Shown here: piece by piece, positions 1,779-19,243 of the stretch | Layout: every line of letters begins with the position of its first letter | How positions within the stretch are numbered: position 1 is the first letter of the stretch | From: a virus | Virus record (IMG/VR): IMGVR_UViG_3300020454_000111 | Location: 1-20,298 of that record | DNA length: 20,298 nt | Direction: 5' to 3' (one strand) | Made by a program: the position numbers and the translations under genes | Notes under the pieces: generated by a model | The model's database searches: none | What the model was told of the DNA's origin: nothing | What the model saw: the letters and a program-made list of their open reading frames with translations, nothing else

Positions 1779-1925
1779 GTGGAAACTAAAGTATACGATA
1801 CTATATTAGAGTACCTATTTGAGAATGATATAGCTGACCATTTAGATCATGCTCATGCTATAATGCATGACCTAGATCCAGAAGAAGTGGATTTCATTCT
1901 AGAGGAAAAAAAAGTTACTGAATGA
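1779..1925 (+). CDS. Small acidic protein with GTG start, function unknown
   Basis: An open frame fills the gap between the genes ending at 1763 and starting at 1922. From the GTG at 1779 it encodes 48 residues beginning M-E-T-K-V-Y-D-T-I-L-E-Y and ending in E-E-K-K-V-T-E. An in-frame GTG at 1770 would add three residues, but AGAG at 1767-1770 lies eight bases from the 1779 GTG and favours the shorter form. The product is acidic and probably helical, with a His-rich middle (ADHLDHAHAIMHD). The stop overlaps the next ATG (ATGA at 1922-1925), as between most genes here. I recognise no family. Confidence 0.6.
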   Translation: METKVYDTILEYLFENDIADHLDHAHAIMHDLDPEEVDFILEEKKVTE

Positions 1926-2506
1926 ACGACAAACATTATGGAGGGTATCCACCCTCACCTGTGAACATAAACGAATATTTAAATGAATGTGCTGATGTTA
2001 TAAGGAACCATCAGATCGACATGGATGAAGAAGATATATTAAATTTACTACAGATAAAATATAGATGGCCAGAACCATCTATGAATATTCTTAACCAGTG
2101 TGGTGTTGTATCCACTGGTTTTTTTGATAAGGATAATTTTATAATTTATGAGAGGTGGAAAAGATTATATGATTATGGTTTTACTACACTACTAAGAAAT
2201 GTTCTTGACCTAACAGGTCAACTAAGAGAGTTGAACGAAAAACTTTTACCACTAAGAGGATCAGATACTATTGCTAACTTTTATTTAAGTAAAGGTACTG
2301 AGACTAGAAGACCTAGTTATGATCCACACAACCATGATTATAATGTTATAGTAAAACCTATCTACGGATCATCTACTTGGGTAATTAATGGTCAGTCACA
2401 AAAGGCAACACCAGATTCTATAGTAATTGTACCAGCATTCTCACAACACTCTGTGATAGAGAGCACTGAACCTAGGTTATCATTGACACTAAATTTGACT
2501 GGATAA
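1922..2506 (+). CDS. Cupin-fold protein, function unknown
   Basis: This is a 194-residue protein. Residues 1-115 look mostly helical and match nothing I recognise. The C-terminal third reads as a cupin beta-barrel: H136 and H138 (PHNHDYNVIVKPIYG) resemble cupin motif 1, and the VIVPAFSQH stretch ending at H176 resembles motif 2. Together these would give a three-histidine site for Fe or another divalent metal. The family holds dioxygenases, isomerases and binding proteins, so the reaction cannot be named. It starts on an ATGA overlap with the preceding small gene. It is the first of six beta-helix metalloprotein candidates in this part of the genome. A non-enzymatic cupin is possible. Confidence 0.6.
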   Translation: MNDKHYGGYPPSPVNINEYLNECADVIRNHQIDMDEEDILNLLQIKYRWPEPSMNILNQCGVVSTGFFDKDNFIIYERWKRLYDYGFTTLLRNVLDLTGQLRELNEKLLPLRGSDTIANFYLSKGTETRRPSYDPHNHDYNVIVKPIYGSSTWVINGQSQKATPDSIVIVPAFSQHSVIESTEPRLSLTLNLTG

Positions 2507-2509
2507 ATA
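2502..2509 (+). promoter_or_regulatory. Candidate T4-type late promoter (GATAAATA)
   Basis: GATAAATA overlaps the stop codon of the cupin gene and lies about 26 bases before the GIY-YIG gene, in the short gap where a promoter would be expected. It fits NATAAATA. No well-spaced -10 follows the nearby TTGACA at 2483-2488, so an early-type promoter is not supported here. Confidence 0.35.
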
Positions 2510-2534
2510 AGAAAAACGGATTGGAAATTATGAA

Positions 2535-2975
2535 ATGGTTGAAGGAGGAGTTTACGAAAACCCCTGGTTATATGAGGCTAAACCTTTTACTTCTAATGAC
2601 ATTGGCAAGTTCTTCGGTTTTGTCTACAGGATTACTAATATACAAACTGGCAAACAATACATCGGTAGAAAATACTTCGTACAGAAACGGAAACCTAGAG
2701 GAGGTAAGAGAAGAGTTACATCGGAGTCTGACTGGAAGCGGTACTACGGAAGCTCTGATGAACTTAAACGAGACATTAAAGAGTTTGGTAAACTAGGATT
2801 CAAAAGAGAAATAATAAGTCTCCATACAACAGTAGGCAAGACAAATTTTGAAGAGACTAGACAGTTGTTTCTTAATAATGTCCTGACAGAAAGCTTGACG
2901 GATGGCACACCTGCCTACTATAATAGTAACATCCTAGGGCGGTATTATCGTAAGGATTACTTCGATGACCTATAA
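2535..2975 (+). CDS. GIY-YIG family nuclease (possible free-standing homing endonuclease)
   Basis: This is a 146-residue protein with a GIY-YIG nuclease core. The first motif is G29-F-V-Y31 (GFVYRITN), the second is Y42-I-G44 followed by the expected Arg (YIGRKYF), and a Glu in FEETRQLF near residue 106 is a plausible metal ligand. The lysine/arginine-rich stretch KRKPRGGKRR (51-60) could contact DNA. I see no separate C-terminal DNA-binding domain such as the NUMOD or zinc modules of intron endonucleases, so it is a minimal form. GIY-YIG enzymes cut DNA and in T-even phages often act as homing endonucleases, several of them near nrd genes. Here it sits between nrdB and talC. Both the homing role and a phage-specific repair or cleavage role are inference. 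The frame that opens at 2521 overlaps it and looks spurious. Confidence 0.72.
   Translation: MVEGGVYENPWLYEAKPFTSNDIGKFFGFVYRITNIQTGKQYIGRKYFVQKRKPRGGKRRVTSESDWKRYYGSSDELKRDIKEFGKLGFKREIISLHTTVGKTNFEETRQLFLNNVLTESLTDGTPAYYNSNILGRYYRKDYFDDL
2895..2924 (+). promoter_or_regulatory. Sigma-70-like promoter TTGACG-N18-TATAAT
   Basis: A -35 box TTGACG (2895-2900) and a perfect -10 TATAAT (2919-2924), 18 bases apart, lie in the 3' end of the GIY-YIG gene. The predicted transcript would start near 2931, about 34 bases before the ATG at 2965, which has AAGGA at 2952-2956. It could drive the oxygenase-like gene and talC using the host RNA polymerase. Confidence 0.5.
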
Positions 2976-3537
2976 AATACTAAAATACCCTACTCCAGAG
3001 AATGTAAATCCTTCATTGTTTAAAGCAATAAAGGATGAAAATTTATCTATGGGTGTTGGACTCCCTCCAGAGTTTCCTTATCCTTGTCAAGGTGCTTATA
3101 AAACTTGGCACTTTATCACACATAATAGGGATAAAATAGAGGGTGCTGATACACTACTAACATGGATAGAAACACAACTTCCTCAAGTTGCCTATGACTT
3201 TGCTGATGGTGGTAGGTATATAGGTGGTCTAGGTTATGAACCCAATGGATTTATCATTGATAGATGTTGGGGAATTTATTATCAGACTGCAGATAAGGTA
3301 GCAATGCATGATCATTTTCCTTTCTGTATGACCTTTGTATACTATGTAAACACTCCTAGTGGTTGTGCTCCTACTGTAGTAGAAAAGGAGGAAATATATC
3401 CAGAAGCAGGTCAATGTCTTTTTATCCCTGGACATGTCATGCATGGAGTACCAGAAACTAAAGAGTCTGGTAGATGTATTATTGCAGGGGATATATTATA
3501 CACTTCACCAAAACCTAATGAAAATTTTTATAGATAG
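2965..3537 (+). CDS. Putative 2OG-Fe(II) oxygenase (HxH...H...R double-stranded beta-helix protein)
   Basis: This 190-residue protein has a C-terminal beta-helix core. H115-D-H117 (VAMHDHFPF) is followed by a hydrophobic YYV strand, an IPGHVMHGV block with H160, and R170, which is placed where 2OG oxygenases bind the 2-oxoglutarate carboxylate. The layout recalls the phage and bacterial family with HxH followed by a GVYYV-type strand (TIGR02466-like). The first metal motif is HxH instead of the more usual HxD, so a cupin with another cofactor is possible. The substrate is unknown. It overlaps the GIY-YIG gene by 11 bases and talC by 20. AAGGA at 2952-2956, eight bases before the ATG, supports the start, and a promoter candidate precedes it. 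Confidence 0.6.
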   Translation: MTYKILKYPTPENVNPSLFKAIKDENLSMGVGLPPEFPYPCQGAYKTWHFITHNRDKIEGADTLLTWIETQLPQVAYDFADGGRYIGGLGYEPNGFIIDRCWGIYYQTADKVAMHDHFPFCMTFVYYVNTPSGCAPTVVEKEEIYPEAGQCLFIPGHVMHGVPETKESGRCIIAGDILYTSPKPNENFYR

Positions 3538-4162
3538 TGCTGATGTCCCAACCATTCTCAAGCACTTTGAGACTGGACTAATCGATGGTGTAACAACTAA
3601 CCCAACTCTTATCAGGAAAGGTGGAAAGGATCCAGAAGATGTGTACCGTGAACTATCAATAGCAGGTATACCTGATGTTAGTATGGAAGTAGTTGAAGAT
3701 ATGACCTTTGAAGGTCAAAGACTTGCTGCTGAGTACAAGGATGTATGTACCGTTAAAGTTCCATGCACACCTGAGGGATTAAAAACTTGTAAAGAACTAT
3801 CTGATAATGGTATCAGAGTTAATGTAACTCTTATCTTCTCACAAGCACAAGCAATTCTTGCTGCTAAGGCAGGTGCTGCTTATGTGTCACCGTTTGTAGG
3901 TAGAGTTGATGACAATTCATTCGGTGGTCTATGCTTAGTTAAGGATATTGCTAAGGTATTCAAAGAGCATATGGTAAGAACTGAAGTTCTAGCAGCATCT
4001 GTACGAGATGTAAGATCTGTAGGCAGAGCATTTGAATATGGTGCAGACATTGTTACTATGCCACCAACAGTTTTTGAGAAGATGTATAATCATATCCTTA
4101 CTGATAAGGGATTAGAATTATTCCAAGCAGACTATGAAGCAGTGTTAGGTATAAACTCGTAG
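3518..4162 (+). CDS. talC: Transaldolase, TalC/fructose-6-phosphate aldolase type
   Basis: This 214-residue enzyme belongs to the small transaldolase/FSA family, which moves a dihydroxyacetone unit between sugar phosphates in the pentose phosphate pathway. The fold signature is clear: MKIFIDSAD at the N-terminus, DGVTTNPTL at 23-31, the Schiff-base lysine K80 in TVKVPCT, and AAYVSPFVGRVDD. The start at 3518 is chosen because MKIFIDSA is the canonical N-terminus of the family; an upstream in-frame ATG at 3434 would add residues that look unrelated. It overlaps the preceding gene by 20 bases. Phage-borne talC is a well-known cyanophage auxiliary metabolic gene, thought to raise pentose phosphate flux and NADPH/ribose supply for dNTP synthesis, which fits the nearby nrdA/nrdB. 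Confidence 0.95.
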   Translation: MKIFIDSADVPTILKHFETGLIDGVTTNPTLIRKGGKDPEDVYRELSIAGIPDVSMEVVEDMTFEGQRLAAEYKDVCTVKVPCTPEGLKTCKELSDNGIRVNVTLIFSQAQAILAAKAGAAYVSPFVGRVDDNSFGGLCLVKDIAKVFKEHMVRTEVLAASVRDVRSVGRAFEYGADIVTMPPTVFEKMYNHILTDKGLELFQADYEAVLGINS

Positions 4163-4208
4163 GCATTTATTTTTGTTAAGTAGGCCGCCTTTTTTGAGGA
4201 TATCCTGA

Positions 4209-4215
4209 CTAAATA
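4209..4215 (+). promoter_or_regulatory. Candidate late-type promoter motif (CTAAATA)
   Basis: CTAAATA lies in the non-coding gap after talC, 70 bases before the next ATG. It is a close variant of the T4-type late motif (A/TATAAATA). I saw no good -35/-10 pair in this gap. The support is the location plus a weak motif. Confidence 0.25.
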
Positions 4216-4284
4216 GTGATAGAATTAAAGGGAAGAACATGACCTGATTCTTTATATCATGTAGTTAAGGTTACAGAGGTTAAA

Positions 4285-4461
4285 ATGTCTAATCACAATA
4301 TGATTTCATTCAATCAACTAGCAGAATGGACGGAATTCGATTCATCGCAAGATGAAAATCTAGTCAACGACTACTTTGATTGCTTGATCGAGTGTGATGA
4401 CAATCAGCAAACATGTAAACGAGTCTGTAAAGACTTACTAATCACTAACACAAAAGCCTAA
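4285..4461 (+). CDS. 58-residue twin CX3C protein, function unknown
   Basis: This short gene lies in the gap between talC and the next oxygenase. AGAGG at 4275-4279, five bases before the ATG, is a good ribosome binding site. The product has four cysteines, C33, C37, C44 and C48, arranged as CX3C-X6-CX3C within an acidic then basic helical region. That spacing could staple two helices with disulfides, as in CHCH/small-Tim proteins, or bind a metal; neither is shown. There is no signal peptide. It looks like one of the small proteins shared among cyanomyoviruses, though I cannot confirm this from sequence alone. The 122 bases between talC and this gene hold no other gene. Confidence 0.65.
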   Translation: MSNHNMISFNQLAEWTEFDSSQDENLVNDYFDCLIECDDNQQTCKRVCKDLLITNTKA

Positions 4462-4489
4462 GTTTATTTTAATTCATTCAAATACATAA

Positions 4490-4512
4490 CCCTTGACTGA
4501 TTCAGTCAGGGG
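4490..4512 (+). terminator. Stem-loop: possible terminator that also covers a -35 box
   Basis: A 10-base-pair stem (4490-4499 with 4503-4512, one G-U pair, loop ATT) sits 28 bases after the 58-residue gene. The stem is GC-rich at its base, as in cyanophage terminators, but the downstream tract is only TCTTAT, not a clean U-run. Its left arm contains the TTGACT -35 box of the next promoter, so it may act as a terminator, an operator or both. Confidence 0.5.
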
Positions 4513-4521
4513 TCTTATAAT
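4493..4521 (+). promoter_or_regulatory. Sigma-70-like promoter TTGACT-N17-TATAAT
   Basis: TTGACT (4493-4498) and perfect TATAAT (4516-4521) are 17 bases apart in non-coding DNA directly before an oxygenase gene. The expected start site (about 4528) coincides with the ATG at 4528/4531, so the transcript would be leaderless or nearly so. The -35 and most of the spacer lie inside a near-perfect inverted repeat. Confidence 0.7.
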
Positions 4522-4527
4522 GTCTAG

Positions 4528-5091
4528 ATGATGTCACATATTGTAGACGATCTCTTTGATTTACAGTTCCTCTGTCAGATGGAGGAAGTTATATTAGAGA
4601 TACCTATTCACACAACCAATACTGCAAACCCTAAGTCCTTTCCTATGGGACTGATAGGTAGTCACAGGTTATTTGGTACAGATATTTTTGTAAGGGAAGA
4701 TATAAATCGTATTACTAAACTACATGAGGATGCTGAAATATTTTTTGATGCCTTTGATATAATTAAAAGAGAATTATTTGAAGTCAATCTTTATCTTAGA
4801 AGGATAGATTTAAATCTACAATACTTTGGGCAAAATGGAACACCACATGTTGATGGTGAGGGAATGACTGTAATGATTATGAACAATACTAAATGGGATC
4901 CAGATTGGGGTGGACAATTTCAACTAGTTGTAGATGGTAAAGTTATAGAAGAGATAGAATATAAACCAGGTAGAATTGTTTTGTTTGATGCTGGTATACC
5001 ACACCGAGGTCTAGCACCCCTTAACAAATACGCTTATAGATATACTACAGTATACCGTGTGGTTATGGAAGATCTTGACAGGTTTTTCTAA
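4528..5091 (+). CDS. 2OG-Fe(II) oxygenase (prolyl-4-hydroxylase-like)
   Basis: This is a 187-residue protein of the prolyl-4-hydroxylase-like 2OG-Fe(II) fold. The N-terminus (HIVDDLFDLQFLCQMEEVI) resembles the opening helix of phage members. The core shows H107-V-D109 (GTPHVDGEG), a GGQF strand, H159 in FDAGIPHRG, and R171 in YRYTTVY; these are the iron triad and the 2-oxoglutarate-binding arginine. Such enzymes couple oxidation of 2-oxoglutarate to hydroxylation of a protein, nucleic acid or small molecule; the substrate is not evident. Tandem ATGs at 4528 and 4531 are both possible starts, with no ribosome binding site at normal distance. A promoter with its -10 seven bases upstream makes a leaderless mRNA likely. 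It is the first gene of the oxygenase island. Confidence 0.78.
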   Translation: MMSHIVDDLFDLQFLCQMEEVILEIPIHTTNTANPKSFPMGLIGSHRLFGTDIFVREDINRITKLHEDAEIFFDAFDIIKRELFEVNLYLRRIDLNLQYFGQNGTPHVDGEGMTVMIMNNTKWDPDWGGQFQLVVDGKVIEEIEYKPGRIVLFDAGIPHRGLAPLNKYAYRYTTVYRVVMEDLDRFF

Positions 5092-5103
5092 TACATTTAT
5101 AAT
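5075..5103 (+). promoter_or_regulatory. Perfect-consensus sigma-70 promoter TTGACA-N17-TATAAT
   Basis: Both hexamers match the bacterial consensus exactly with the ideal 17-base spacer. The -35 lies in the last codons of the oxygenase gene and the -10 lies in the gap. Transcription would start near 5110, which favours the ATG at 5150 as the start of the nitrilase-like gene. Confidence 0.75.
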
Positions 5104-5138
5104 AGGTAAAAAATTTATGGTCACTGAAAAAGATTATT

Positions 5139-5144
5139 GGGAGG
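5139..5144 (+). promoter_or_regulatory. Strong ribosome binding site GGGAGG deciding the start at 5150
   Basis: GGGAGG ends five bases before ATG 5150 and is among the best Shine-Dalgarno matches in the window. The alternative ATG at 5117 would lie only about seven bases inside the predicted transcript and has no such site. Confidence 0.6.
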
Positions 5145-5149
5145 GCAAC

Positions 5150-6301
5150 ATGACTCAAGAAGAATTTGAAGAAAATCTGCCTAAGTATGGGTATGAATAT
5201 ACACCTCTATCACCAAAGGGAGATTCTATACCCAAACAGGTAGAGTATAAAGAGAAAGTTAAGCTAACATCACCTGATGAGAACCCTAAAGGTGAACCAC
5301 AAACATGGCAGGGGTTTGGTTACCTAGCAGATACTGCACCTACCGATAGAATTATTAAGATGGCAGGTGCTCAGATTCCATGTGGCACAAACATACAGGC
5401 CAATAAAAAAGAAATATTTAAAGCAATTGATTGGGCAAAAGAAAATGAGGTTGATCATATCCTCACACCAGAAGGTTCTTTGTCAGGATGGTTAGGTGGA
5501 TGGGAAGATAAATTGGATGAGTTGACTGAAGCATTGAGAGAGGTTGAAGCGTATCAAGAAAAGGCAGGTGTTGGTTTACATCTAGGCACTAATTTTTATG
5601 AGTCAGAATATTTTGCTAACCAAGTTTTTAGAAATGAGATAAGGCATTACCATAAGAGTGGTAGGTTGATGTGCTGTACATTTAAAACAATGTGTTTAGA
5701 TAGACAAGCATCACATCCAAACCCACCATTAGAACATGTACTTAAGAGAGATAAAGATGATCAAATTACAATGATCAGATTAAGACAAGAAGATGAACCA
5801 CAAGCAAACTCTAATGAGTTTTGGAAAGAACCACTTGCTGCTGGTCTAATTTGTAATGATCTATGGGGTTATCAAGAGGGTGGTCAGCGTCCTCTTACAT
5901 CTGTCTTTAATCAGATGGGTTGTTTTAATCTTATTATGCATGCTACTAATGGTAGGAAAGGAAAGATAGAAGATTATGATTGGAAAATTTTTGATAAATG
6001 GCATGATGCATTTTTCCATATGACATCATTCAATACTGGTCTACCTATCCTTACAGTAGATGCATGTACTGCTTGGGAATGGGATGGTGATGAGGATTCA
6101 GTCGATGATTGTGTGACTTCTAGTCAGAGTGGAGTCATCACTCGCACTGGATGGGATGTTACAGTACCAAGAACAGGAAGACAATATTTTAAATGGGATC
6201 TTAAGATACCTAAACTAGAAGACAGATTTGAATTTGATGGTGGCAATCCTGCACCAACTAAAGATGGTATTAGTTACATGGATACAGGGATAGATAAATG
6301 A
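5150..6301 (+). CDS. Carbon-nitrogen hydrolase (nitrilase superfamily), substrate unknown
   Basis: This 383-residue protein (from ATG 5150) carries the nitrilase-superfamily catalytic triad: E108 in LTPEGSLSGW, K179 in CTFKTMCLDR and C235 in GLICNDLWG, each in its expected context. An N-terminal strand MAGAQIP (71-77) opens the alpha-beta-beta-alpha fold. Family members hydrolyse amides, nitriles or N-carbamoyl groups, or act as glutaminase domains. About 70 extra residues precede the fold and a long aromatic-rich tail follows it, so it fits none of the standard branches I know. An upstream ATG at 5117 adds 11 residues; the promoter at 5075-5103 and GGGAGG at 5139-5144 favour 5150. It lies among 2OG oxygenase genes and overlaps the next small gene by ATGA. 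Processing of a small nitrogen compound is a guess. Confidence 0.85.
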   Translation: MTQEEFEENLPKYGYEYTPLSPKGDSIPKQVEYKEKVKLTSPDENPKGEPQTWQGFGYLADTAPTDRIIKMAGAQIPCGTNIQANKKEIFKAIDWAKENEVDHILTPEGSLSGWLGGWEDKLDELTEALREVEAYQEKAGVGLHLGTNFYESEYFANQVFRNEIRHYHKSGRLMCCTFKTMCLDRQASHPNPPLEHVLKRDKDDQITMIRLRQEDEPQANSNEFWKEPLAAGLICNDLWGYQEGGQRPLTSVFNQMGCFNLIMHATNGRKGKIEDYDWKIFDKWHDAFFHMTSFNTGLPILTVDACTAWEWDGDEDSVDDCVTSSQSGVITRTGWDVTVPRTGRQYFKWDLKIPKLEDRFEFDGGNPAPTKDGISYMDTGIDK

Positions 6302-6498
6302 AAGATCAAAACTCTGTAGATAGTAATGAATCCAAAGAGGATAAAATGCATAGGGCAAGATCTCTTTTTATAGAATCAGTCTTAGCACCTGATCACCATC
6401 TTCGTGGTTGTGCTCACAATCAAAAATGTTTTAATGAATTAATGGAAATCCGTCATGATGTATTGCTTAGTTTAGGTTATGAAGAAACCAACAGTTGA
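6298..6498 (+). CDS. Small protein of unknown function
   Basis: This 66-residue hydrophilic protein begins on the ATGA shared with the nitrilase-like gene. AGGGA at 6286-6290, seven bases upstream, supports the start. The middle part (HRARSLFIESVLAPDHHLRGC) and the helical C-terminus (CFNELMEIRHDVLLSLGYEE) carry two cysteines and several histidines, but no motif I can name. It overlaps the next oxygenase gene by 20 bases, which argues for a real, coupled gene. Function unknown. Confidence 0.6.
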   Translation: MKDQNSVDSNESKEDKMHRARSLFIESVLAPDHHLRGCAHNQKCFNELMEIRHDVLLSLGYEETNS

Positions 6499-7117
6499 AG
6501 TAGTTGAGGATTTTTTCCCCAATGACATTGCTAATTTTGTATCAGAGTATGTAACATACCATGCTGCATACAAGTATGGTGAGGCAGACAATGAAGGGAA
6601 TGAATATGATGAAAGAAAACCTACTGGTATGGTACACAATGTTTTCTTTGCAGATAAACCAGAAGAGTGTGTTGGAGATGATAAATTAATTTTTGATTGT
6701 ATGACAACTGGTATTACTAAACACTATCCAGATTATTGGAATACATTTGGGATCTATAGATTGTATATAAATGTCTTCGCTCCTAATGAAAGAGCATACT
6801 TTCATAATGATGCTGATCCAGAACAGCAACAGAATACATTTTTATATTATCCTATACATGATGGTTGGGACTATGATATTGAAGAGTCTGGATGGACAGA
6901 GTTCTATCTAGATAAAAAGATCATTGGAGTGCCACCTGAGTGGAATAGTATGTGTAAATTTACTGCACAGATTTTGCATAGAGCATCACCATTTAAATCT
7001 CATCAAAGGTTTAGTATTGCTATTAAGACTGCCTTAAAAAGTGACATTGAACAATGGGTAAAGCATCCAGAGACTATTAATAGAAGAGATAGTGCAGACC
7101 TTTCTGTAATGAATTAA
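6479..7117 (+). CDS. 2OG-Fe(II) oxygenase
   Basis: This 212-residue enzyme candidate has a clear 2OG-Fe(II) signature. H109-N-D111 (RAYFHNDADP), a FLYYP strand, a GWTEFYLD strand, H167 in QILHRAS and R177 in HQRFSIAIKT give the iron triad and the cosubstrate arginine at the usual spacing. The protein begins with a VVEDFFP segment, the typical opening of phage 2OG proteins. The block with an aromatic ladder and a His-Arg after the distal histidine resembles prolyl-hydroxylase-like proteins that hydroxylate protein or nucleotide targets; the target here is unknown. It overlaps the upstream small gene by 20 bases and its stop shares one base with the next ATG, so the island is tightly coupled. 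Confidence 0.78.
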   Translation: MKKPTVEVVEDFFPNDIANFVSEYVTYHAAYKYGEADNEGNEYDERKPTGMVHNVFFADKPEECVGDDKLIFDCMTTGITKHYPDYWNTFGIYRLYINVFAPNERAYFHNDADPEQQQNTFLYYPIHDGWDYDIEESGWTEFYLDKKIIGVPPEWNSMCKFTAQILHRASPFKSHQRFSIAIKTALKSDIEQWVKHPETINRRDSADLSVMN

Positions 7118-7722
7118 TGGATCCTGTTAAACAATCTATAATCAATGATGGATATGTAATCATTGATGATTTCTTGTATCCTGATGTGGTTGATGAGTTG
7201 CATCAATCTGCTATCAATTCTAAACATATAGATGATGACTATTCTGAATGGGGTTATCATTCTATAAATTTTGATAGGGAAAAGTTTCCATTTCCACTTT
7301 TACCTGATGTTATTAATGCTATACATGGTGCTTTCTCTCCCCTACATTCATTAGAGTTTGACAGAGGATGGGCATTTGTATATAATAATGAGGCAGAAGG
7401 AGTTACTCCACATGCCGACCCTGCAGCTCTGAATGTAAACCTATGGGTCACTCCTTCTCGGTGTGTTAAAGACACAACAAAAAATGGTCTTATCATCTAT
7501 GATAAACAAGCACCACTAGACTGGACATGGGAAGATTATAACTCTAACTCTCAAAAAGTTATTAATTATCTTGATGAATCTAAAGCATCTCCTAGATACA
7601 TTCCTTATAACTATAATAGGATCACAATTTTTGAATCAAATTATTTCCACAAAACGAATAGCGTCTCTATGATAGAGGGGCAGGAGAATCGTAGAGTGAA
7701 CTACACATTTATGTTTAAGTAA
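7117..7722 (+). CDS. 2OG-Fe(II) oxygenase-like protein
   Basis: This 201-residue protein opens with INDGYVIIDDFL, a common start of phytanoyl- and prolyl-hydroxylase-like proteins. The iron triad is H99-A-D101 (GVTPHADPAAL) and H178 (NYFHKTNS), with R192 or R193 (ENRRVNYTFMF) as the 2-oxoglutarate contact. The NLWVTP strand and the NGLIIYDK segment after the first motif recall bacterial proteins with the same HAD...NLW pattern. The substrate is unknown. It starts one base into the stop of the preceding gene and ends two bases before the next. A perfect sigma-70-like promoter match lies within its coding sequence (7358-7386). It shares little with its neighbours outside the signature, so it is not a recent duplicate. 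Confidence 0.72.
   Translation: MDPVKQSIINDGYVIIDDFLYPDVVDELHQSAINSKHIDDDYSEWGYHSINFDREKFPFPLLPDVINAIHGAFSPLHSLEFDRGWAFVYNNEAEGVTPHADPAALNVNLWVTPSRCVKDTTKNGLIIYDKQAPLDWTWEDYNSNSQKVINYLDESKASPRYIPYNYNRITIFESNYFHKTNSVSMIEGQENRRVNYTFMFK
7358..7386 (+). promoter_or_regulatory. Intragenic sigma-70-like promoter TTGACA-N17-TATAAT
   Basis: Both hexamers are perfect with an ideal 17-base spacer, but the site lies in the middle of an oxygenase coding sequence, about 340 bases before the next gene. It could give a transcript for 7725 onward. The bases also encode FDRGWAFVYNN, so protein constraint alone may explain it. Confidence 0.4.
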
Positions 7723-7724
7723 TC

Positions 7725-8390
7725 ATGTCATTTTATTCAATTGAAGATTTTGAGTACAACTCTTCTTGGGGTGTTGCAATAATTCCATACAGAGGTTCTA
7801 TAATACTTCATATCGATGAGGTATATAAAAAACCTTTGAAGGTATATGAATATCTTAAAGAGTGTCCTATAAGAGCACATAGATTATGTGAAGCAGATCC
7901 TAAAAGTCTTAATGGTAAGATGTTTTATGACGGTCAACATATACTAGACAATAGAACTATCACTGCAAGGTCACATCTATTTGAAAAAATTATAGAATTT
8001 TTTGCTAAAGAAAAGGATGAGAACTTTCCACCACTATCAAGGTTCAATCAGTTCAGATTGATTGAAGATTATCCTGGCAATGGTGTCTTCTATACACCAC
8101 ATGTTGATGGTGGTATGTTGAATTGTTTAACATATTTAAATCCTAACTGTGGATCAGATGCTGGTACGATGCTTTACTTGCCAGCAAATGATGATGCAGA
8201 AGAGATACTAGAGAGTCAATCAGAGCACGAGCAACCTTGGAAAGATGATTCTTTATTCGTAGAAGATCTAGCAATCATATCTAAGTTTAATTCTATGGTT
8301 GTTTTTGATGGGAGCATACCACATGGCCAGATTATTAATGACAACAGATTCAAAGAGCAAACAAGATTTACGGAGGTAGCATTTTTCTAA
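7725..8390 (+). CDS. 2OG-Fe(II) oxygenase
   Basis: This 221-residue protein has H126-V-D128 (YTPHVDGGML), a TYLNP strand, a GTMLYLP strand, H200 in DGSIPHGQI and R214 in EQTRFTEVAFF, a complete iron and 2-oxoglutarate site. The FRLIEDYPGNGVFYTPH stretch before the motif is typical of prolyl-4-hydroxylase-type domains. An insert of about 30 acidic residues (roughly 155-185) between the second strand and the distal histidine could shape substrate access. It follows the previous oxygenase after two bases, making three 2OG-type genes in a row. Its stop shares one base with the next ATG. The substrate is unknown. Confidence 0.78.
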   Translation: MSFYSIEDFEYNSSWGVAIIPYRGSIILHIDEVYKKPLKVYEYLKECPIRAHRLCEADPKSLNGKMFYDGQHILDNRTITARSHLFEKIIEFFAKEKDENFPPLSRFNQFRLIEDYPGNGVFYTPHVDGGMLNCLTYLNPNCGSDAGTMLYLPANDDAEEILESQSEHEQPWKDDSLFVEDLAIISKFNSMVVFDGSIPHGQIINDNRFKEQTRFTEVAFF

Positions 8391-8629
8391 TGCAAATTAA
8401 ATGTTTAGTGTGTAATACAGTAATTACTAGTACAGGAAAACCACAAGTATGTGGTTGTGAGAATCAAATGGTAGTGGATGACACCTCATTCACAGCGAAA
8501 TCTTTAGCGAATGTTAAGGTTCTAAATACAAATGTCAGGGAAACTGGACATTTGACGCAAGATCAGTTACAATGGCAAGAACAGCGTCGTAAAAGACGCA
8601 TCCGCAAACTTACCTACGAGGAACGATGA
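8390..8629 (+). CDS. Small protein with CX2C...CXC zinc-binding-like motif
   Basis: This 79-residue protein has an N-terminal cysteine cluster C5-L-V-C8 and C21-G-C23 (CX2C-X12-CXC), which resembles a compact zinc ribbon. It ends in a strongly basic tail (QEQRRKRRIRKLTYEER). Metal and nucleic-acid binding would fit this layout but is not shown. GGAGG lies at 8372-8376, 13 bases upstream of the ATG, which is longer than ideal. The next gene starts on its stop through ATGA. It could help regulate transcription or bind RNA; that is speculation from composition. Confidence 0.65.
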   Translation: MQIKCLVCNTVITSTGKPQVCGCENQMVVDDTSFTAKSLANVKVLNTNVRETGHLTQDQLQWQEQRRKRRIRKLTYEER

Positions 8630-9417: not shown

Positions 9418-10410
9418 ATGAAAGCTCTGATTACTGGTATTACAGGACAAGACGGATCGTACCTTGCTGAACTTCTCCTTGAGAAAGGATATGAAGTTCA
9501 TGGTATTGTTCGTCGTTCTTCTATGATTAATACCCATAGAATTGATCACATATATGATCAAATCCATCTCCACTATGGAGATTTGACTGACTCAGGTAAC
9601 ATCATTAGTTTGGTTCAAAAGATCAAACCTAATGAGGTGTATAACCTTGCTGCTATGAGTCATGTAAAGGTATCATTTGAGATGCCTGAATATACTGGTG
9701 AGGTAGATGCCTTAGGAACTCTTCGTCTTCTAGATGCTATTCGTCTTCTAGATCATGAGTGTAGGTTCTATCAAGCATCTACCTCAGAGTTATATGGATT
9801 AGTACAAGAAGTTCCTCAGAACGAGAAGACTCCTTTCTATCCTCGTAGTCCTTATGGGTGTGCCAAGTTGTACTCCTATTGGATTACTAAGAACTATCGT
9901 GAGGCATATGGAATCCATGCTAGTAATGGTATCCTATTCAATCACGAATCCCAGAGGAGAGGTGAGACCTTTGTAACTCGTAAGATTACAATGGGACTCT
10001 CTCGCATCTCAACAGGGTTGCAGCACGAGTTAGTGTTGGGTAACATAGATGCTAAACGAGACTGGGGACATGCTAAGGATTATGTCCGAGGCATGTGGAT
10101 GATTACACAACATGATAAACCAGACGACTTTGTGTTGGCTACTGGTAAAATGTATAGTGTAAGAGAGTTTGTAGAACATGCAGCAGATTATTTTGGATTC
10201 AAAATACGCTGGCATGGAGAGGGGTTAGAAGAGCGTGGTTACTGTGCCACTATGGGCAGAGACATCATCAGAGTGAGCGATAAATACTACCGCCCAACAG
10301 AAGTTGAACAACTTCTAGGTGATGCTACTAAGGCAAAAGAAGTCTTAGGATGGGAACCAGAGTTATCTTTTAAAGATCTCGTTGAAGACATGTGTATTTA
10401 CGGACAATGA
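9418..10410 (+). CDS. gmd: GDP-mannose 4,6-dehydratase
   Basis: This 330-residue short-chain dehydrogenase/reductase of the extended type converts GDP-D-mannose to GDP-4-dehydro-6-deoxy-D-mannose, the first step to GDP-L-fucose and related deoxysugars. The NADP-binding loop [10 protein letters not shown] is at 7-16. The catalytic set is T122 and E124 in QASTSELYG and Y146-x3-K150 in [24 protein letters not shown] and the [14 protein letters not shown] block are GMD hallmarks. The length is slightly short compared with bacterial GMDs (about 340-370). The ATG abuts the preceding stop. The position next to fcl and fucosyltransferase-like genes agrees with the call. Confidence 0.96.
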
Positions 10411-11651
10411 AATTATTTCACAAAATAACCAAGTGTAGAGTCTGCGGTAACGAACACTACGAAGTAGTTCTAGATCTTGGTGATCAATACCTATCAGGTG
10501 TCTTTCCTAAGGAAATCGATCCTGATATGTACAAAGGTCCATTGACACTTGTTAAGTGTGATGAGACTAAAGGTGGTTGTGGTCATGTACAGTTAGAACA
10601 TACCTTTGATCTTCCTACAATGTATGGAGATGAGTATGGGTATCGTTCTGGACTGAATGGTAGCATGGTCAAGCACCTTAAAGGTAAGGCAGACAAGATC
10701 ATGTCTGATGCCAAACTTGACTCAGGTGATATTGTATGTGACATTGCTGGTAACGATGGAACTTTCTTATCGTTCTTCCCAAAGGATTGCCAGTTGGTTA
10801 GTATTGATCCTACCTCTAAGAAATTTAAGGATTACATTCCTGACAATGTTCATTACATTGCTGACTTCTTTAGTGCTAAGACATTCCAAGAAAGATTTGG
10901 TAAACAAAAGGCAAAGGTTATTACCTCTTTCTCTATGTTCTATGACCTAGAGGATCCATGTGGATTTGCCACACAAGTTCGTGAGTGTCTTGATGATGAA
11001 GGTATCTGGGTACTAGAACAAAGTTATATGCCAGAAATGCTTCGTGCAAATTCGTTTGATACAGTATGTCATGAGCATCTATCATACTATGGTATGAGAC
11101 AACTTAAGTACATCATGGACAAAGCAGGATTTAAGATCGTTGACTTTGATTTTAATGATGTAAATGGTGGTAGTATATCTGTTGTAGTTGCTAAGAGCAG
11201 TAGCAAGAGAGAAGAGTGTAAGACTAAGTTAACTGGTATTCTTGCTAGTGAATTGGATCAGGAGTTGAATACAACTAAACCTTGGAGAGAGTTTGCTATT
11301 AGGTTGGTACAAAATAGAGAACAGTTCTGGAAGATGTTAACCTTCTATAAGGAGAACAAGGCTACAGTCTGTGCTCTAGGTGCAAGCACTAAGGGTAATG
11401 TAACACTCCAGACATGGGAAGTTACTCCTAATGATATCTCTGTCATTGGTGATGTTAACCCTGATAAGGATGGATCATATACACCAGGTACATGGATACC
11501 TATTGCTTCTGAAGAGAAAGTAATGGAACAGGACTATGATGTGTATATTGTTTTACCTTGGCACTTTAAAAATTTCTTTATCAAGAACCCTAAGTTCAAA
11601 GGTAAGAGATTGCTATTCCCTTTACCAACTCCTGAGGTTATTATCCCATGA
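10407..11651 (+). CDS. NovU/TylCIII-type sugar C-methyltransferase
   Basis: This 414-residue protein has the three-part layout of deoxysugar C-methyltransferases. An N-terminal zinc domain has C10-x2-C13 with C51 and C58. A class I S-adenosylmethionine domain follows, with its loop at 111-119 (CDIAGNDGT) and acidic residues in VSIDPTS. The HEHLSYYG motif (222-229) holds the His/Glu catalytic pair of this family, and a C-terminal Rossmann-like domain contains [14 protein letters not shown]. Characterised relatives (TylCIII, NovU, TcaB9) methylate carbon of 4-keto-6-deoxysugar nucleotides, mostly at C3. Lying between gmd and fcl, its natural substrate would be the GMD product. The start at 10407 (ATGA with the gmd stop) is chosen over an in-frame 10392 because [14 protein letters not shown] opens the zinc domain. 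Confidence 0.85.
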
Positions 11652-12595
11652 AGTTAAGGACAATGAATAAAACTGATTGTATCTTTGTGGCAGGTCACAA
11701 GGGGTTAGTTGGTTCTGCTATTGTTCGCAGACTTAAAGCAGATGGATACCTTAATATTCTTACTGCTACCAGAGATCAATGTGATTTAACTGATTCAAAC
11801 CAAGTTAAATTATTTTTTGAGACACATCGAATCGATTATGTTTTTGATGCTGCTGCTAGAGTCGGTGGCATTCATGCTAATGATGCATACTCAGCAGAGT
11901 TTATCTATCAGAACACAATGATTCAGACTAACCTGATTCATTGGGCATACAAATACTTTGTCAAGAAGTTTGTCTTCCTTGGTAGTGTCTGCATCTATCC
12001 TAAGTTTGCACCGACTCCTGTTAAAGAGGAGTCTATATTATCGGGTGAATTAGAACCTACTAATGAAGCATATGCTATTGCTAAGATACATGGCATAGAG
12101 ATGTTGAAGATGTATAACAAACAGTATGGATTTAAAGGTGTATCATTAATGCCTTGTAATCTATATGGTCCTCATGATAACTTTCATCCTGATAATGGTC
12201 ATGTCATCCCTGCATTGATGACTAAGTTTAACAATGCAACAATGAATGTTGTGACCTGTTGGGGTGATGGTACTCCTACCAGAGAGTTTATGTATGTGGA
12301 TGATCTAGCAGACGCATGTATGTTTGCTGTAGAAAATTATGATAACGGAGAACTCATCAATGTTGGATCAGGCCAGGATGTTTCTATCTTCCACCTAGCA
12401 CATAAGATTGCTGCCCTCACAGGGTTTAATGGTAAGATTGAATGGGATACTAGTAGACCTAATGGAACACCTAAGAGACCATTAGACTACAGTAAGATCA
12501 CTGCTAAGGGTTGGAAACCTAAGTATGATCTTGATACTGGTCTAGCAAAAGCATATCAGTGGTTCCAAGAAGCAACTAATCTACAAACAAAATGA
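11648..12595 (+). CDS. fcl: GDP-L-fucose synthase (epimerase/reductase)
   Basis: This 315-residue extended short-chain dehydrogenase converts GDP-4-dehydro-6-deoxy-D-mannose to GDP-L-fucose by 3,5-epimerisation and NADPH reduction. The GHKGLVG loop is at 16-22. The catalytic S113 and C115 lie in LGSVCIYP, and Y142-x3-K146 lies in EAYAIAK. The NLYGPHDNF and HVIPAL blocks, including the His used in epimerisation, are typical of Fcl/WcaG. It starts on an ATGA overlap with the methyltransferase gene; an ATG at 11663 is an alternative, with AAGGA very close to it. If the C-methyltransferase acts first, the product could be a C-methyl deoxyhexose instead of plain fucose. Confidence 0.94.
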   Translation: MKLRTMNKTDCIFVAGHKGLVGSAIVRRLKADGYLNILTATRDQCDLTDSNQVKLFFETHRIDYVFDAAARVGGIHANDAYSAEFIYQNTMIQTNLIHWAYKYFVKKFVFLGSVCIYPKFAPTPVKEESILSGELEPTNEAYAIAKIHGIEMLKMYNKQYGFKGVSLMPCNLYGPHDNFHPDNGHVIPALMTKFNNATMNVVTCWGDGTPTREFMYVDDLADACMFAVENYDNGELINVGSGQDVSIFHLAHKIAALTGFNGKIEWDTSRPNGTPKRPLDYSKITAKGWKPKYDLDTGLAKAYQWFQEATNLQTK

Positions 12596-13401
12596 TTGGT
12601 ATTAATCATGTAGGCAAGAAGAAGGAGCGTCTAGCAAATCAGATGTTCCAGTATTCTGCAGTGAAAGGTATAGCAAAGAACATGGGGTATCAATACTGTG
12701 TACCTCCATCTAAGTTCAAGAGTAATGCAGATGCATGGAAAGAACATCAATTGTTTATGCCCTTTACTCTAGAGACATTTAGTCCATTACAAATACAATG
12801 GATAGATGAGAGGAAACCTATAATACAGGAGAGACACTTCCATTTTGATGAGAAGTTGTTCAACAATTGTCCTGACTGGGTTACCCTATGGGGATTCTAT
12901 CAGTCAGAGAAGTATTTTTTAAATGTTAGAGATGAATTAATAAAAGATTTTACATTCAAAGACGACATAAAAAATCCCTGCATGGAGATGATGGAGGGTC
13001 TAAATAAATCTATCGCTTTACATGTGAGACGAACTGACTACGCTCAGTATGGACATCATCCTATAGTTTCGCTAGAATATTATGAGAAAGCATTGTCCTA
13101 TTTCGATAGCGACAGACCTGTGGTTGTTCTTTCAGATGATCCTGCGTGGTGTCACGAGCAACCTCTATTTGCTGATGATAGGTTTATGGTCTCCGAGTCA
13201 GGAGATCAATATGTCGATCTTTGTTTAATGACTATGTGTTCCGATTTTATCATAGCAAATAGTTCCTTTAGTTGGTGGGGTGCATGGCTCTCAGAATCAG
13301 TAAACAAACAGGTAATAGCTCCGAGCAAGTGGTTCGGACCTCCGTTGGATCAACGGAACAATACACAAGATCTCTACTGCGAAGGTTGGATGAAACTATG
13401 A
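12592..13401 (+). CDS. GT11-family alpha-1,2-fucosyltransferase-like protein
   Basis: This 269-residue protein carries the three landmarks of CAZy family GT11: the N-terminal LANQMFQYSAVKG block (14-26), the nucleotide-sugar motif HVRRTDY (144-150), and IANSSFSWWGAWLS (221-234). Family enzymes transfer L-fucose from GDP-fucose in alpha-1,2 linkage, usually to galactose (the H-type structure), at the cytoplasmic membrane in bacteria. The donor would be supplied by gmd and fcl just upstream. Length is normal for the family, and the usual GGLGN start is replaced by KKERLAN. It overlaps its neighbours by ATGA. Linkage and acceptor are inferred from the family, and a modified deoxysugar donor is possible. 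Confidence 0.88.
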   Translation: MIGINHVGKKKERLANQMFQYSAVKGIAKNMGYQYCVPPSKFKSNADAWKEHQLFMPFTLETFSPLQIQWIDERKPIIQERHFHFDEKLFNNCPDWVTLWGFYQSEKYFLNVRDELIKDFTFKDDIKNPCMEMMEGLNKSIALHVRRTDYAQYGHHPIVSLEYYEKALSYFDSDRPVVVLSDDPAWCHEQPLFADDRFMVSESGDQYVDLCLMTMCSDFIIANSSFSWWGAWLSESVNKQVIAPSKWFGPPLDQRNNTQDLYCEGWMKL

Positions 13402-14093
13402 CAAATGTGGCTATAATATTCATAGGTACTAATAAGTACCTTGATTTCCTTCCAAGATATTATGAACAATGTGAAGAGCATTTGATGCCAGATGCTAACA
13501 AGCAGTACTTTATATTCACTGATGGTGAACTGGATGGTACTCCAGAAAACATGTCAGTATATAATATAGAACACAAAGCATGGCCAGCAATCACGCTGGA
13601 AAGGTTTCATACTATTCTTGAGGCAGAGAAAGAGTTGAAGAAATTTGATTGGATGCTCTTCCTTGACGCAGACATGGTAGTCCAGAAGAAGATATTCTCT
13701 CATGAGATTTTAGATCCAGAGAAAGAATACCTTGCTGTACATCACCCATGTCATTATGCTGACTACAGTGGTACATTTGAAACCAATCCTAAGTCAGAAG
13801 CATATGTAGATGGTGAACAAAAGAATTACTATCAAGGATGTCTATGGGGTGGACAAGTTAAACATGTTATTCCTATGATGAAGACTCTGAGAAACAGAGT
13901 TGACAAGGATTATCGGAATGATATAATAGCACTATGGCATGATGAAAGTCAGATCAATAAGTTCTTCTTAGAGAATGAAGACAAGGTAAATGCCTTACCT
14001 CCTGACTATGCATATCCAGAGTGTTTCCCACATTATACATACGATAGAAAGATTATTCATCTTGCAAAAGATAACTCTGAATTACAAACATGA
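13398..14093 (+). CDS. GT6-family (ABO blood-group type) glycosyltransferase
   Basis: This 231-residue protein matches CAZy family GT6, which includes mammalian alpha-1,3-Gal/GalNAc ABO transferases and a few bacterial and phage relatives. Landmarks are ITLERFHTI, a metal-binding DxD (D90-A-D92 in WMLFLDADM), the donor loop YYQGCLWGG (144-152), and the catalytic HDES (181-184) followed by NKFF. The start at 13398 (ATGA with the fucosyltransferase stop) is chosen because MTNVAIIFIGTNKY opens the fold; the in-frame ATG at 13272 only adds residues read from the GT11 gene in another frame. In ABO transferases the acceptor must carry alpha-1,2-fucose, which the upstream gene would make. The donor loop differs (QGC instead of LGG or MGA), so the donor sugar is unsure. 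Confidence 0.85.
   Translation: MTNVAIIFIGTNKYLDFLPRYYEQCEEHLMPDANKQYFIFTDGELDGTPENMSVYNIEHKAWPAITLERFHTILEAEKELKKFDWMLFLDADMVVQKKIFSHEILDPEKEYLAVHHPCHYADYSGTFETNPKSEAYVDGEQKNYYQGCLWGGQVKHVIPMMKTLRNRVDKDYRNDIIALWHDESQINKFFLENEDKVNALPPDYAYPECFPHYTYDRKIIHLAKDNSELQT
13900..13927 (+). promoter_or_regulatory. Intragenic sigma-70-like promoter TTGACA-N16-TATAAT
   Basis: Both hexamers match the consensus, with a 16-base spacer, inside the GT6 gene and about 150 bases before the FkbM-like gene. It could start a second transcript for the distal glycan genes. The coding context means chance cannot be excluded. Confidence 0.35.
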
Positions 14094-14791
14094 CCGACCC
14101 TAATGCATGGCAGTTGCCAACCTTTTATACCGTAGATAGGATAAATGAACTTCGTTATAAATTTCCTGGTATTGAGAAGGTATCACACCAAAATTTCTCT
14201 CAATGTTATCAGGACATGTTTGTTCTGTGTATGTTAGATGGAAAACCACATGGTACTTTTGTAGAGATTGGTTCAGGTCATCCTGTTATCTCTAACAACA
14301 CTGCTCTACTTGAGTCTAGGTATGAGTGGACTGGTATAGGTTTTGAAATTAAAAATAAAGAGGCCGATTTATATAATGAACATCGTAAAGCACCTGTTGC
14401 TTTAGGTGATGCTACTACTGCTGATTTTGATCAACTGTTTAAAGAGGTAAATTTAGGACCAGTATTTGATTACCTACAAGTAGATTGTGAACCAGCACAG
14501 GTTACTTATGATGCAATGCTAAAGATAGATTTAGATAAGTATAAGTTTGCTACGATTACATTCGAGCATGATAAGTATAATGATGGTCCTGAGATACAAA
14601 ATAAATCTAGAGAGTACCTACAAGAAAGAGGGTATGTTCTTATTGCAGATGATATATCAGTAGATAATAAACATCCTTTTGAGGATTGGTGGGCACATCC
14701 AGATCTTGTTCCTGCACATTGTATTAGTAATATGAAATGTGTTACAGGTGAGACTAAGAGTGCTCAAGATTATATGTTAGGTAAGATCTAA
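14090..14791 (+). CDS. FkbM-like S-adenosylmethionine-dependent methyltransferase
   Basis: This 233-residue protein has the class I methyltransferase nucleotide loop GTFVEIGSG (55-63) followed by NNTALLE and WTGIGFEI, the pattern of FkbM-type O-methyltransferases. QVDCEPAQVTYDAML corresponds to the family's K-I-D-V-E-G region and ITFEHDKY to a later strand. FkbM enzymes methylate hydroxyls of sugars and other glycans. The position after GT11 and GT6 genes suggests it caps or decorates the same glycan. Overlap with the GT6 stop is by ATGA. A methyltransferase acting on a protein or lipid is not excluded. Confidence 0.72.
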   Translation: MTDPNAWQLPTFYTVDRINELRYKFPGIEKVSHQNFSQCYQDMFVLCMLDGKPHGTFVEIGSGHPVISNNTALLESRYEWTGIGFEIKNKEADLYNEHRKAPVALGDATTADFDQLFKEVNLGPVFDYLQVDCEPAQVTYDAMLKIDLDKYKFATITFEHDKYNDGPEIQNKSREYLQERGYVLIADDISVDNKHPFEDWWAHPDLVPAHCISNMKCVTGETKSAQDYMLGKI

Positions 14792-15705
14792 TGAAGGTAG
14801 TACTGTGGGGGTATCCGCTACACACAGATACCTATTCTTACATCTATGAAGCGTTTCAAAAAGCATTTCAACATTTAGGGTATGAAGTATTCTGGTTTAC
14901 TGATGAAGATCATCCAGAGGACTTTGATTATGAGGACTGCTTATTCTTTTGTGAAGGATATAGAGATAAAAAAATCCCTCTAAGGAAGAGTAGTACATAT
15001 GTATGCCATGTATGTGTCAACCCTGCTAAGTATGTTGGTAATGTCAAGAAGTTAATTGACATGAGATATCATGTAGATTACATGGATGATACCAACTATA
15101 CATATACCGTAGACTATAATAATTGTGATGAACTGGAGTCGGGAGTCCTCTATGACAGGAGTTCTTCTGATTATGATATAATATACATGGCATGGGCAGC
15201 AAACCTATTACCACACGAGATTGATTTTAATTGGGCAACCAGAAAAAGAGATCCAGTATGGCATATGATAGGGAGTATATCTGATCATGGTCGGTTCGCT
15301 AATGGTCCTGCTATCAATGCATGGGCACAAGAGTGTCAGCATGCAGGTATCCAATGCTTCCATAGTGATCCTTGGACTACACCATTACCCGATGATGTAT
15401 ACAGGGAGAAGATGCAACAGTCTATCATGCAACCTGATCTCAGAAATGAGACTCATATGGCATGGGGTGTTAAGAGTTGCCGTATCTTTAAGGCGATCAG
15501 TTATGGTCACCTAGGTATGACTAACTCACCTAAACTTGCTGATTTCATCGATGACTCTATAGTATGCTCAGAGGACATTAGAGAACTCTTCCTCAAAGGA
15601 TTTGGCATGTATCAAAATGTTGAGTTGATTCAGCATCAGATGCAAATTGTTAAAGACAGGCATACATTTATAAATCGTTCCAAAGGTATTCTAAAACTGA
15701 TCTAG
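14791..15705 (+). CDS. CgeB-like putative glycosyltransferase (GT-B fold)
   Basis: This 304-residue protein opens with a Rossmann-like half (VVLWGYPLHTDTYSYIYEAFQKAFQHLGYEVFWFTDED). Its C-terminal half has SCRIFKAISYGHLGMTNSPKLADFIDDSIV, the region where GT-B enzymes of the CgeB/Glyco_trans_1_2 type bind the sugar nucleotide. No DxD motif is needed in this fold. The donor and acceptor cannot be read from sequence. The gene starts at the last base of the previous stop. The call as a glycosyltransferase rests on fold pattern and context, so it is less certain than its neighbours. Confidence 0.62.
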   Translation: MKVVLWGYPLHTDTYSYIYEAFQKAFQHLGYEVFWFTDEDHPEDFDYEDCLFFCEGYRDKKIPLRKSSTYVCHVCVNPAKYVGNVKKLIDMRYHVDYMDDTNYTYTVDYNNCDELESGVLYDRSSSDYDIIYMAWAANLLPHEIDFNWATRKRDPVWHMIGSISDHGRFANGPAINAWAQECQHAGIQCFHSDPWTTPLPDDVYREKMQQSIMQPDLRNETHMAWGVKSCRIFKAISYGHLGMTNSPKLADFIDDSIVCSEDIRELFLKGFGMYQNVELIQHQMQIVKDRHTFINRSKGILKLI

Positions 15706-15707
15706 TT

Positions 15708-19076: not shown

Positions 19077-19243
19077 AAAAACTATTATTACTAGCACCAT
19101 TGTTAGTAGGATGCACTAATGCAGGTATGGGTAGTATCAACTGGAGTAATCCAGGAGTAGCAGACTCATACACTTGTGAAGAAGTAGCAGATCCAGCAAA
19201 CTATTGTGCTACAGGAGAACACCCTAACTTATGTGATTGCTAA
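19073..19243 (+). CDS. Short predicted lipoprotein, function unknown
   Basis: This 56-residue product has a type II signal peptide: MKK, then the hydrophobic LLLLAPLLVG, then the lipobox cysteine at residue 14 (L-V-G-C). After processing, about 43 residues would remain, rich in Gly, Asn and Ala with four further cysteines near the C-terminus (C-E-E-V...C-A-T...C-D-C). AAGG at 19062-19065, seven bases upstream, supports the start, which lies in the ATGA of the previous stop. Lys/Arg-Leu signal plus lipobox means membrane anchoring, probably in the outer membrane since Asp does not follow the Cys. Tiny phage lipoproteins can block superinfection (T5 Llp) or act as lysis accessory (Rz1); neither can be told here. 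Confidence 0.75.
   Translation: MKKLLLLAPLLVGCTNAGMGSINWSNPGVADSYTCEEVADPANYCATGEHPNLCDC

Follow-up and report, generated by a model that had tools for sequence, protein, structure and literature searches.

A fixed-order set of 2-oxoglutarate oxygenase genes beside a glycan cluster in T4-like marine cyanophages

The T4-like cyanophages S-SCSM1, P-SSM2, S-SSM7, P-RSM4, and Sf-CH1b carry many divergent single-domain 2-oxoglutarate (2OG) oxygenases per genome, with some of the genes consecutive and some beside fibre genes or GDP-fucose clusters (PMC3037559, PMC9602691), and the S-SCSM1 isolate was published with 24 2OG oxygenase genes (PMC9602691). A similar multiplicity is seen in a 20,298-base virus record (IMG/VR IMGVR_UViG_3300020454_000111, analyzed in full and referred to here as the window), whose 5' end starts within the end of nrdA and continues into nrdB; the closest match of the window nrdB is that of P-SSM2 (82%), and the window resembles T4-like cyanophages of the Kyanoviridae. 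Unlike the published sets, the oxygenase genes here include a fixed-order oxyB-oxyC-oxyD(-oxyE) core with its own promoter-hairpin that recurs in 20 contigs, and in one sub-lineage a carbon-nitrogen (CN) hydrolase gene has been inserted into it (the names oxyA to oxyE are labels coined for the present analysis only). We came across no account of this unit in the papers that were searched; the class of cyanophage auxiliary 2OG genes is already well known, and what is unusual is the conservation of the oxyB-E set and its order.

Conservation of the oxygenase cassette

The 20 contigs that span the interval represent 13 oxyB clusters at 90% amino acid identity, and were collected by gene-by-gene scans together with a scan for the promoter-hairpin, an element whose sequence brings in no selection for oxygenases; part of the set was found via the cassette genes, so the count for oxyB carries ascertainment. 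Both oxyB and oxyC are present in all 20 contigs, oxyD in 18, and oxyE in 15, always in the same order, between talC/SegE and a GDP-fucose/glycosyltransferase cluster, whereas oxyA-like genes (six contigs), the nitrilase-like CN hydrolase gene (five), and the cupin gene (two) come and go. Two divergent contigs (L035 and L036) retain the oxyB-oxyC-oxyD order at 37-55% identity, without the nitrilase and oxyE. The locus is thus built of a core, two to four oxygenases from the oxyB-E set, to which optional neighbours are added, and the conservation of the core's order suggests that its oxygenases work together.

The original prediction, made from the window alone, was of an island of six metalloproteins (a cupin, one HxH protein, and four HxD proteins) within about 6.5 kb, three of them consecutive. 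Each of the six reading frames is found where predicted, within 1922-8387, and oxyC, oxyD, and oxyE are consecutive, abutting or overlapping by one or two bases. As a unit of inheritance, the island holds for oxyB-E, which travel together across the genomes compared; it does not hold for the cupin, oxyA, or (within this locus) the nitrilase, which occur independently. The predicted metal residues are invariant in sequence in all six families, and the predicted fold agrees for OxyC, where it was checked. Between nrdB and the sugar/glycosyltransferase cluster, the gene order is cupin, SegE, oxyA, talC, oxyB, CN hydrolase, small open reading frame (ORF), oxyC, oxyD, oxyE, and small ORFs, with the following features:

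1922..2503, plus strand: cupin-like protein with HxH...H, optional neighbour (invariant His; weak cupin profiles; PDB cupins; 2/20 contigs)
2535..2972, plus strand: SegE-type GIY-YIG endonuclease (Pfam SegE_GIY-YIG, E=9e-55; PHROG 447)
2965..3534, plus strand: oxyA, predicted HxH...H...R 2OG oxygenase, optional (PHROG 81, E=2e-15; 7 homologs; 6/20 contigs)
3518..4159, plus strand: talC transaldolase, flanking gene (Pfam TAL_FSA, TIGR00875; 18/20 contigs)
4489..4521, plus strand: putative promoter-hairpin before oxyB, a palindrome overlapping a sigma70-like -35 (fold energy; present in 29 viral contigs)
4528..5088, plus strand: oxyB, predicted HxD...H...R 2OG oxygenase, core (PHROG 274, PF13640, FlmC-type 2OG; 20/20 contigs)
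5075..5103, plus strand: perfect TTGACA-N17-TATAAT before the nitrilase gene (0 in 100 shuffles)
5114..6298, plus strand: putative carbon-nitrogen hydrolase (nitrilase superfamily), optional (E120/K191/C247; CN_hydrolase in 7/22 homologs; 5/20 contigs)
6298..6495, plus strand: small conserved protein, PHROG 495, between nitrilase/oxyB and oxyC (18/20 contigs)
6479..7114, plus strand: oxyC, predicted PHD/P4H-fold 2OG oxygenase, core (model pLDDT 78, pTM 0.80; 25 homologs; 20/20 contigs)
7117..7719, plus strand: oxyD, predicted HxD...H...R 2OG oxygenase, near-core (PHROG 1644, E=6e-9; 19 homologs; 18/20 contigs)
7725..8387, plus strand: oxyE, predicted HxD...H...R 2OG oxygenase, frequent (PHROG 1644, E=1e-31; 15 homologs; 15/20 contigs)
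8390..8626, plus strand: small conserved protein immediately 3' of the cassette (19/20 contigs)
9418..20046, plus strand: flanking glycan cluster (Pfam; same order beside the cassette in related contigs)

Judged by their sequences, OxyB to OxyE carry the signature of the Fe(II)/2OG oxygenase superfamily, an HxD...H metal triad with a distal Arg for 2OG. Counting over alignment rows that cover the site (with one truncated row each for oxyC and oxyD), the residues are invariant in OxyB (H107/D109/H159/R177, 28 sequences), OxyC (H109/D111/H167/R177, 25 sequences), OxyD (H99/D101/H178/R193, 19 sequences), and OxyE (H126/D128/H200/R214, 15 sequences), and dN/dS values of 0.05-0.24 for oxyB-E and the nitrilase indicate purifying selection. 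OxyA has HxH where the others have HxD (H115/H117/H160/R170, invariant among its 7 homologs); it matches PHROG 81, labelled '2OG-Fe(II) oxygenase', and Pfam PF13759 below its cut-off. In the cupin, H136, H138, and H176 are invariant (6 homologs), the Pfam AraC_binding and Cupin_2 matches are below cut-off, and the closest solved structures are small PDB cupins (E 5e-4); a cupin homolog also stands alone in S-SSM7 and HTVC008M.

The earlier claim that the oxygenases did not arise by recent duplication is borne out: pairwise identities among OxyA-E are 19-33%, the best BLASTP E value is 0.005, and profile-profile comparison among the five finds nothing significant. PHROGs pairs OxyB with OxyC (274) and OxyD with OxyE (1644), a very distant homology. 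Database labels in these families need care. PHROG 274 bears the label 'DNA endonuclease V', which might be taken to favour oxidation of nucleic acids, as in AlkB- or TET/JBP-like repair or base modification; we regard this as very improbable. The P-SSM2 gene named 'denV / DNA endonuclease V' (L046:16522-17067) has an HKD...SHTG...R signature and a weak PF13640 match, so that both it and the PHROG 274 label appear to be misannotated 2OG oxygenases, and no AlkB or TET/JBP match was found for OxyA-E in Pfam at E up to 1, an absence that is itself no proof. We note also that the PHROG 447 label 'NAD synthetase' matches the SegE GIY-YIG protein, a frequent misnaming, and that the PHROG 1644 label 'minor coat protein' covers OxyD and OxyE. 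A literature search turned up no explanation for the FlmC-type 2OG oxygenase label of OxyB.

Density was a poorer guide than order. Using three PHROG profiles, we counted 2OG loci in seven complete T4-like marine phage genomes (Sf-FS3, S-SSM7, Sf-CH1b, P-RSM4, HTVC008M, S-SCSM1, and P-SSM2), and found 9-24 loci per genome, the densest 6.5-kb stretch of each genome holding four to six; of all genes in related phages, 4-11% are 2OG genes. Under random placement, P for the densest stretch varies from <0.001 (Sf-CH1b and P-RSM4) up to 0.22, and chance suffices in some genomes. The dense clusters adjoin fibre genes in Sf-CH1b, P-RSM4, and S-SSM7, and precede GDP-fucose clusters in S-SCSM1 and Sf-FS3. 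The implication of the original prediction that such density is rare was therefore wrong, comparable density being found in 7/7 complete relatives, and we rejected density alone as evidence for a shared pathway; the argument for such a pathway now leans on the conserved order of oxyB-E.

There may also be no shared pathway at all. Unrelated auxiliary genes could have accumulated in a variable region beside the SegE-type endonuclease, with a separate role for every oxygenase and the synteny reflecting the ancestry of one lineage. The gain and loss of the cupin, oxyA, nitrilase, and oxyE genes, the clustering of 2OG genes at many sites in each genome, and the filling of similar slots by different 2OG families are all consistent with this. 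We nonetheless consider it rather unlikely, in that the adjacency and order of oxyB-C(-D) survive the divergence of L035 and L036 while their neighbours turn over, and in that the talC-bearing contigs have the promoter-hairpin in common.

OxyC fold and glycosylation context

The predicted OxyC model has a double-stranded beta-helix fold, and its best structural neighbours are prolyl hydroxylases of the PHD/P4H type: PHD2 heads the structural comparison (Z 17.0, root-mean-square deviation 3.0, 169 aligned), with a Trichoplax prolyl hydroxylase (Z 16.8) and the Pseudomonas putida P4H (Z 16.0) close to it. Compared with the HIF prolyl hydroxylase PHD2 and the bacterial prolyl hydroxylases, most of the model can be aligned (Z 16-17) and the HxD...H...R ligands are common, but identity is only 11-14%, and AsqJ does about as well in Foldseek. 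As between stepwise oxidation of a single small molecule and modification of macromolecules, the modelled fold leans towards peptidyl hydroxylation. With profiles searched against solved structures, OxyB has weak best matches to PHD1, the Trichoplax PHD, and a P4H (E 0.1-0.23), and OxyC, OxyD, and OxyE have no meaningful match; the AlphaFold model of OxyD (7 sequences, pLDDT 43) is unusable for a statement on fold.

Tentatively, we favour a cassette of macromolecule hydroxylases, acting most likely on protein side chains and linked to surface or virion glycosylation. The operon-like unit would comprise talC, the promoter-hairpin, oxyB, the optional CN hydrolase, a small ORF, oxyC, oxyD, the frequent oxyE, and further small ORFs, located between nrdB and the GDP-fucose/glycosyltransferase cluster of a T4-like marine cyanophage (Kyanoviridae). 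Each Oxy protein would be an Fe(II)/2OG hydroxylase made during infection; less certainly, the targets would be macromolecules, probably side chains of virion fibre or host proteins. Hydroxylation may be joined with the neighbouring glycosyltransferases in one modification programme, the hydroxylated or glycosylated products of which would go to the virion or host surface, and an amide handled in this programme would be the target of the optional CN hydrolase.

Protein side chains are favoured because of the OxyC fold and because of four features of gene context. First, the closest oxyB homolog in an isolate phage (Sf-CH1b, 42%) belongs to a cluster of six oxygenase genes that immediately follows tail-collar/fibre genes. 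Second, S-SCSM1 has a 2OG gene on either side of a protein O-fucosyltransferase gene, in front of its GDP-fucose cluster. Third, Sf-FS3 and S-SSM7 have PHROG 1644 oxygenases flanked by GT11 and GT25 genes. Fourth, the glycan neighbour is constant, the cassette adjoining the GDP-mannose dehydratase and C-methyltransferase genes in every contig that extends that far.

Several observations weigh against this reading. A PHD-like fold does not by itself settle which substrate is used, because AsqJ, a small-molecule enzyme, also ranks high for OxyC (among the top Foldseek rows, with other 2OG enzymes close behind), and among OxyB-E the predicted fold support covers OxyC only. Co-inheritance in one phage lineage can mean common ancestry rather than common function, and 2OG genes are scattered throughout these phage genomes. 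The fibre genes beside comparable clusters have no long collagen-like Gly-X-Y arrays, for which reason collagen-like fibre proteins were rejected as substrates. Lastly, no 2OG protein of S-SCSM1 carries a virion-protein label in the record stretch examined, which would fit an intracellular role and lends no support to virion modification.

A more specific form of the hydroxylation reading, to which we attach only a small probability, is a pathway of the phage's own in which PHD-type oxygenases hydroxylate residues of virion or host proteins and the adjacent GDP-fucose-dependent glycosyltransferases decorate them, giving a phage-specific glycoprotein coat. In Dictyostelium, Skp1 is modified by a PHD-type hydroxylase and then by glycosyltransferases, including an alpha-1,2-fucosyl step. 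The likeness of this hydroxylation-dependent glycosylation to the cassette is a resemblance of parts only.

The carbon-nitrogen hydrolase and possible small-molecule tailoring

The gene at 5114-6298 appears to encode a member of the nitrilase superfamily, as its Glu-Lys-Cys triad (E120, K191, and C247) is invariant in 22 sequences and CN_hydrolase (PF00795) is matched by 7/22 homologs (best 1.6e-8), with no match for the window protein itself. Its nearest solved relatives are the glutaminase domains of NAD synthetase (a weak profile match, E 3e-4). The triad is common to the glutaminase domain of glutamine-dependent NAD+ synthetase and the CN_hydrolase family; unlike that synthetase, the window hydrolase is stand-alone, with an extra N-terminal segment (~80 amino acids) and no synthetase domain. 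The NAD synthase domain PF02540 was seen only in Sf-FS3, its relative L031, and S-SSM7; none was found in L007, L008, L009, L037, and most other contigs, nor among the window genes scanned. Supply of ammonia to an NAD-synthase-like ligase was thus rejected as the role of the nitrilase, there being no partner gene in the window lineage.

Related hydrolases are found in other marine phages (P-SSM2, Sf-FS3, and single-cell viral contigs), with distant ones in metagenome-assembled genomes of Planctomycetes and Verrucomicrobia. A 2OG oxygenase of PHROG 274 or 81 lies directly upstream of the hydrolase in 5/11 settings, where 4-11% of genes would be expected; the five are this cassette, a P-SSM2-like gp33 locus, two versions of a locus before a PHROG 564 gene, and a Rickettsiales-binned contig. 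The binomial P is about 0.001 at 8%, with the split into 11 distinct settings being the analyst's judgement. We regard as a lead that the nitrilase tends to sit right behind a 2OG oxygenase in unrelated backgrounds. In the contig binned as a Rickettsiales metagenome-assembled genome (L049:6816-8858), a heme-oxygenase-like gene, a PHROG 274 2OG oxygenase, and a CN hydrolase overlap head to tail, and in P-SSM2-like contigs, among them L022 and L023, a PHROG 81 2OG oxygenase is followed by two or three CN-hydrolase genes in tandem. A literature search of titles and abstracts on nitrilase or hydroxyproline in cyanophages gave nothing relevant.

The oxygenases and CN hydrolase may instead act on a small molecule, either a metabolite or a nucleotide sugar; they might, for instance, oxidise a precursor (sugar or lipid) that feeds the neighbouring glycan pathway, with the amidase trimming it or supplying nitrogen; we treat this as a possible though doubtful alternative, and as nearly as likely as the protein side-chain reading. 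In its favour, beside the recurrence of an oxygenase upstream of the hydrolase and the relationship of the latter to glutaminase domains, every contig long enough to include the sugar cluster has it next to the cassette, and in Sf-FS3 and its close relatives the CN hydrolase is inside the glycan cluster, between two GT11 genes and near an NAD-synthase-like amide ligase and a UDP-glucose dehydrogenase. Set against these, the hydrolase is missing from 15/20 cassettes, the window lineage has no NAD-synthase-like partner, and the predicted OxyC fold is most like that of peptidyl hydroxylases.

Promoter-hairpin and flanking sequence

In talC-bearing contigs, a conserved promoter-hairpin stands 5' of oxyB-E. 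Before oxyB (4489-4521), it consists of the palindrome CCCTTGACT-nnnnn-AGTCAGGGG followed by TATAAT; the -35 hexamer TTGACT is inside the stem and the -10 TATAAT follows 17 nt on. Because the -35 hexamer lies inside the stem, the element may act as a combined terminator and promoter. It folds at -17.2 kcal/mol (z -3.8), and its loop-closing pair has switched from G-C to C-G between lineages. The promoter-hairpin was found in 29 viral contigs, with one copy in each; three of these (L064, L074, and L084) have no other window genes, and the hairpin is thus not exclusive to the cassette. A small ORF of 58 amino acids (4286-4462), too short for the ORF list, lies between talC and the hairpin, and small ORFs of similar size occupy this gap in relatives (e.g., L039, 9598-9753). 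The perfect TTGACA-N17-TATAAT before the nitrilase is kept in L007-L009 and absent in L037. A perfect promoter inside oxyD (7358) was rejected as a conserved promoter, as its sequence tracks codon constraint and L008, L009, and L037 have lost it.

The window also contains 11 NtcA-type GTA-N8-TAC sites, versus 5 in shuffles (0/100 shuffles reach 11). That oxygenases might lower 2OG and so alter the host NtcA nitrogen signal was proposed for cyanophages in 2010 (PMC3037559), and was revived for this locus as a speculation in the original prediction. The sites, at twice the shuffle frequency, could be read in its favour; most of the matches are intragenic. Fe(II)/2OG oxygenases couple their consumption of 2OG to that of a substrate, so a set of divergent active sites under strong constraint would make a poor 2OG sink. 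The speculation has gained no support here, and we give it very little credence.

According to Pfam, the flanking glycan cluster contains GDP-mannose dehydratase, a C-methyltransferase, a GDP-fucose synthase-like epimerase, GT11, GT6, methyltransferases, further glycosyltransferases, and GT25. The C-methyltransferase (Methyltransf_13/14, within 10410-12592) lies between the GDP-mannose dehydratase and GDP-fucose synthase-like genes, a position that suggests a C-methyl-branched deoxysugar rather than plain fucose. At 12592-14090, a GT11 gene (alpha-1,2-fucosyltransferase family) is followed by a GT6 gene (ABO blood-group family), a combination reminiscent of blood-group glycans, here carried by a phage.

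Few kinds of gene without an assigned role are as numerous in T4-like marine cyanophages as those for 2OG oxygenases, and a small cassette with a fixed membership, its own promoter, and a constant neighbouring pathway offers a better route to a substrate than do scattered single genes. Should protein hydroxylation prove to be the right reading, these phages would use a eukaryote-like scheme of hydroxylation and glycosylation on their particles or their host.

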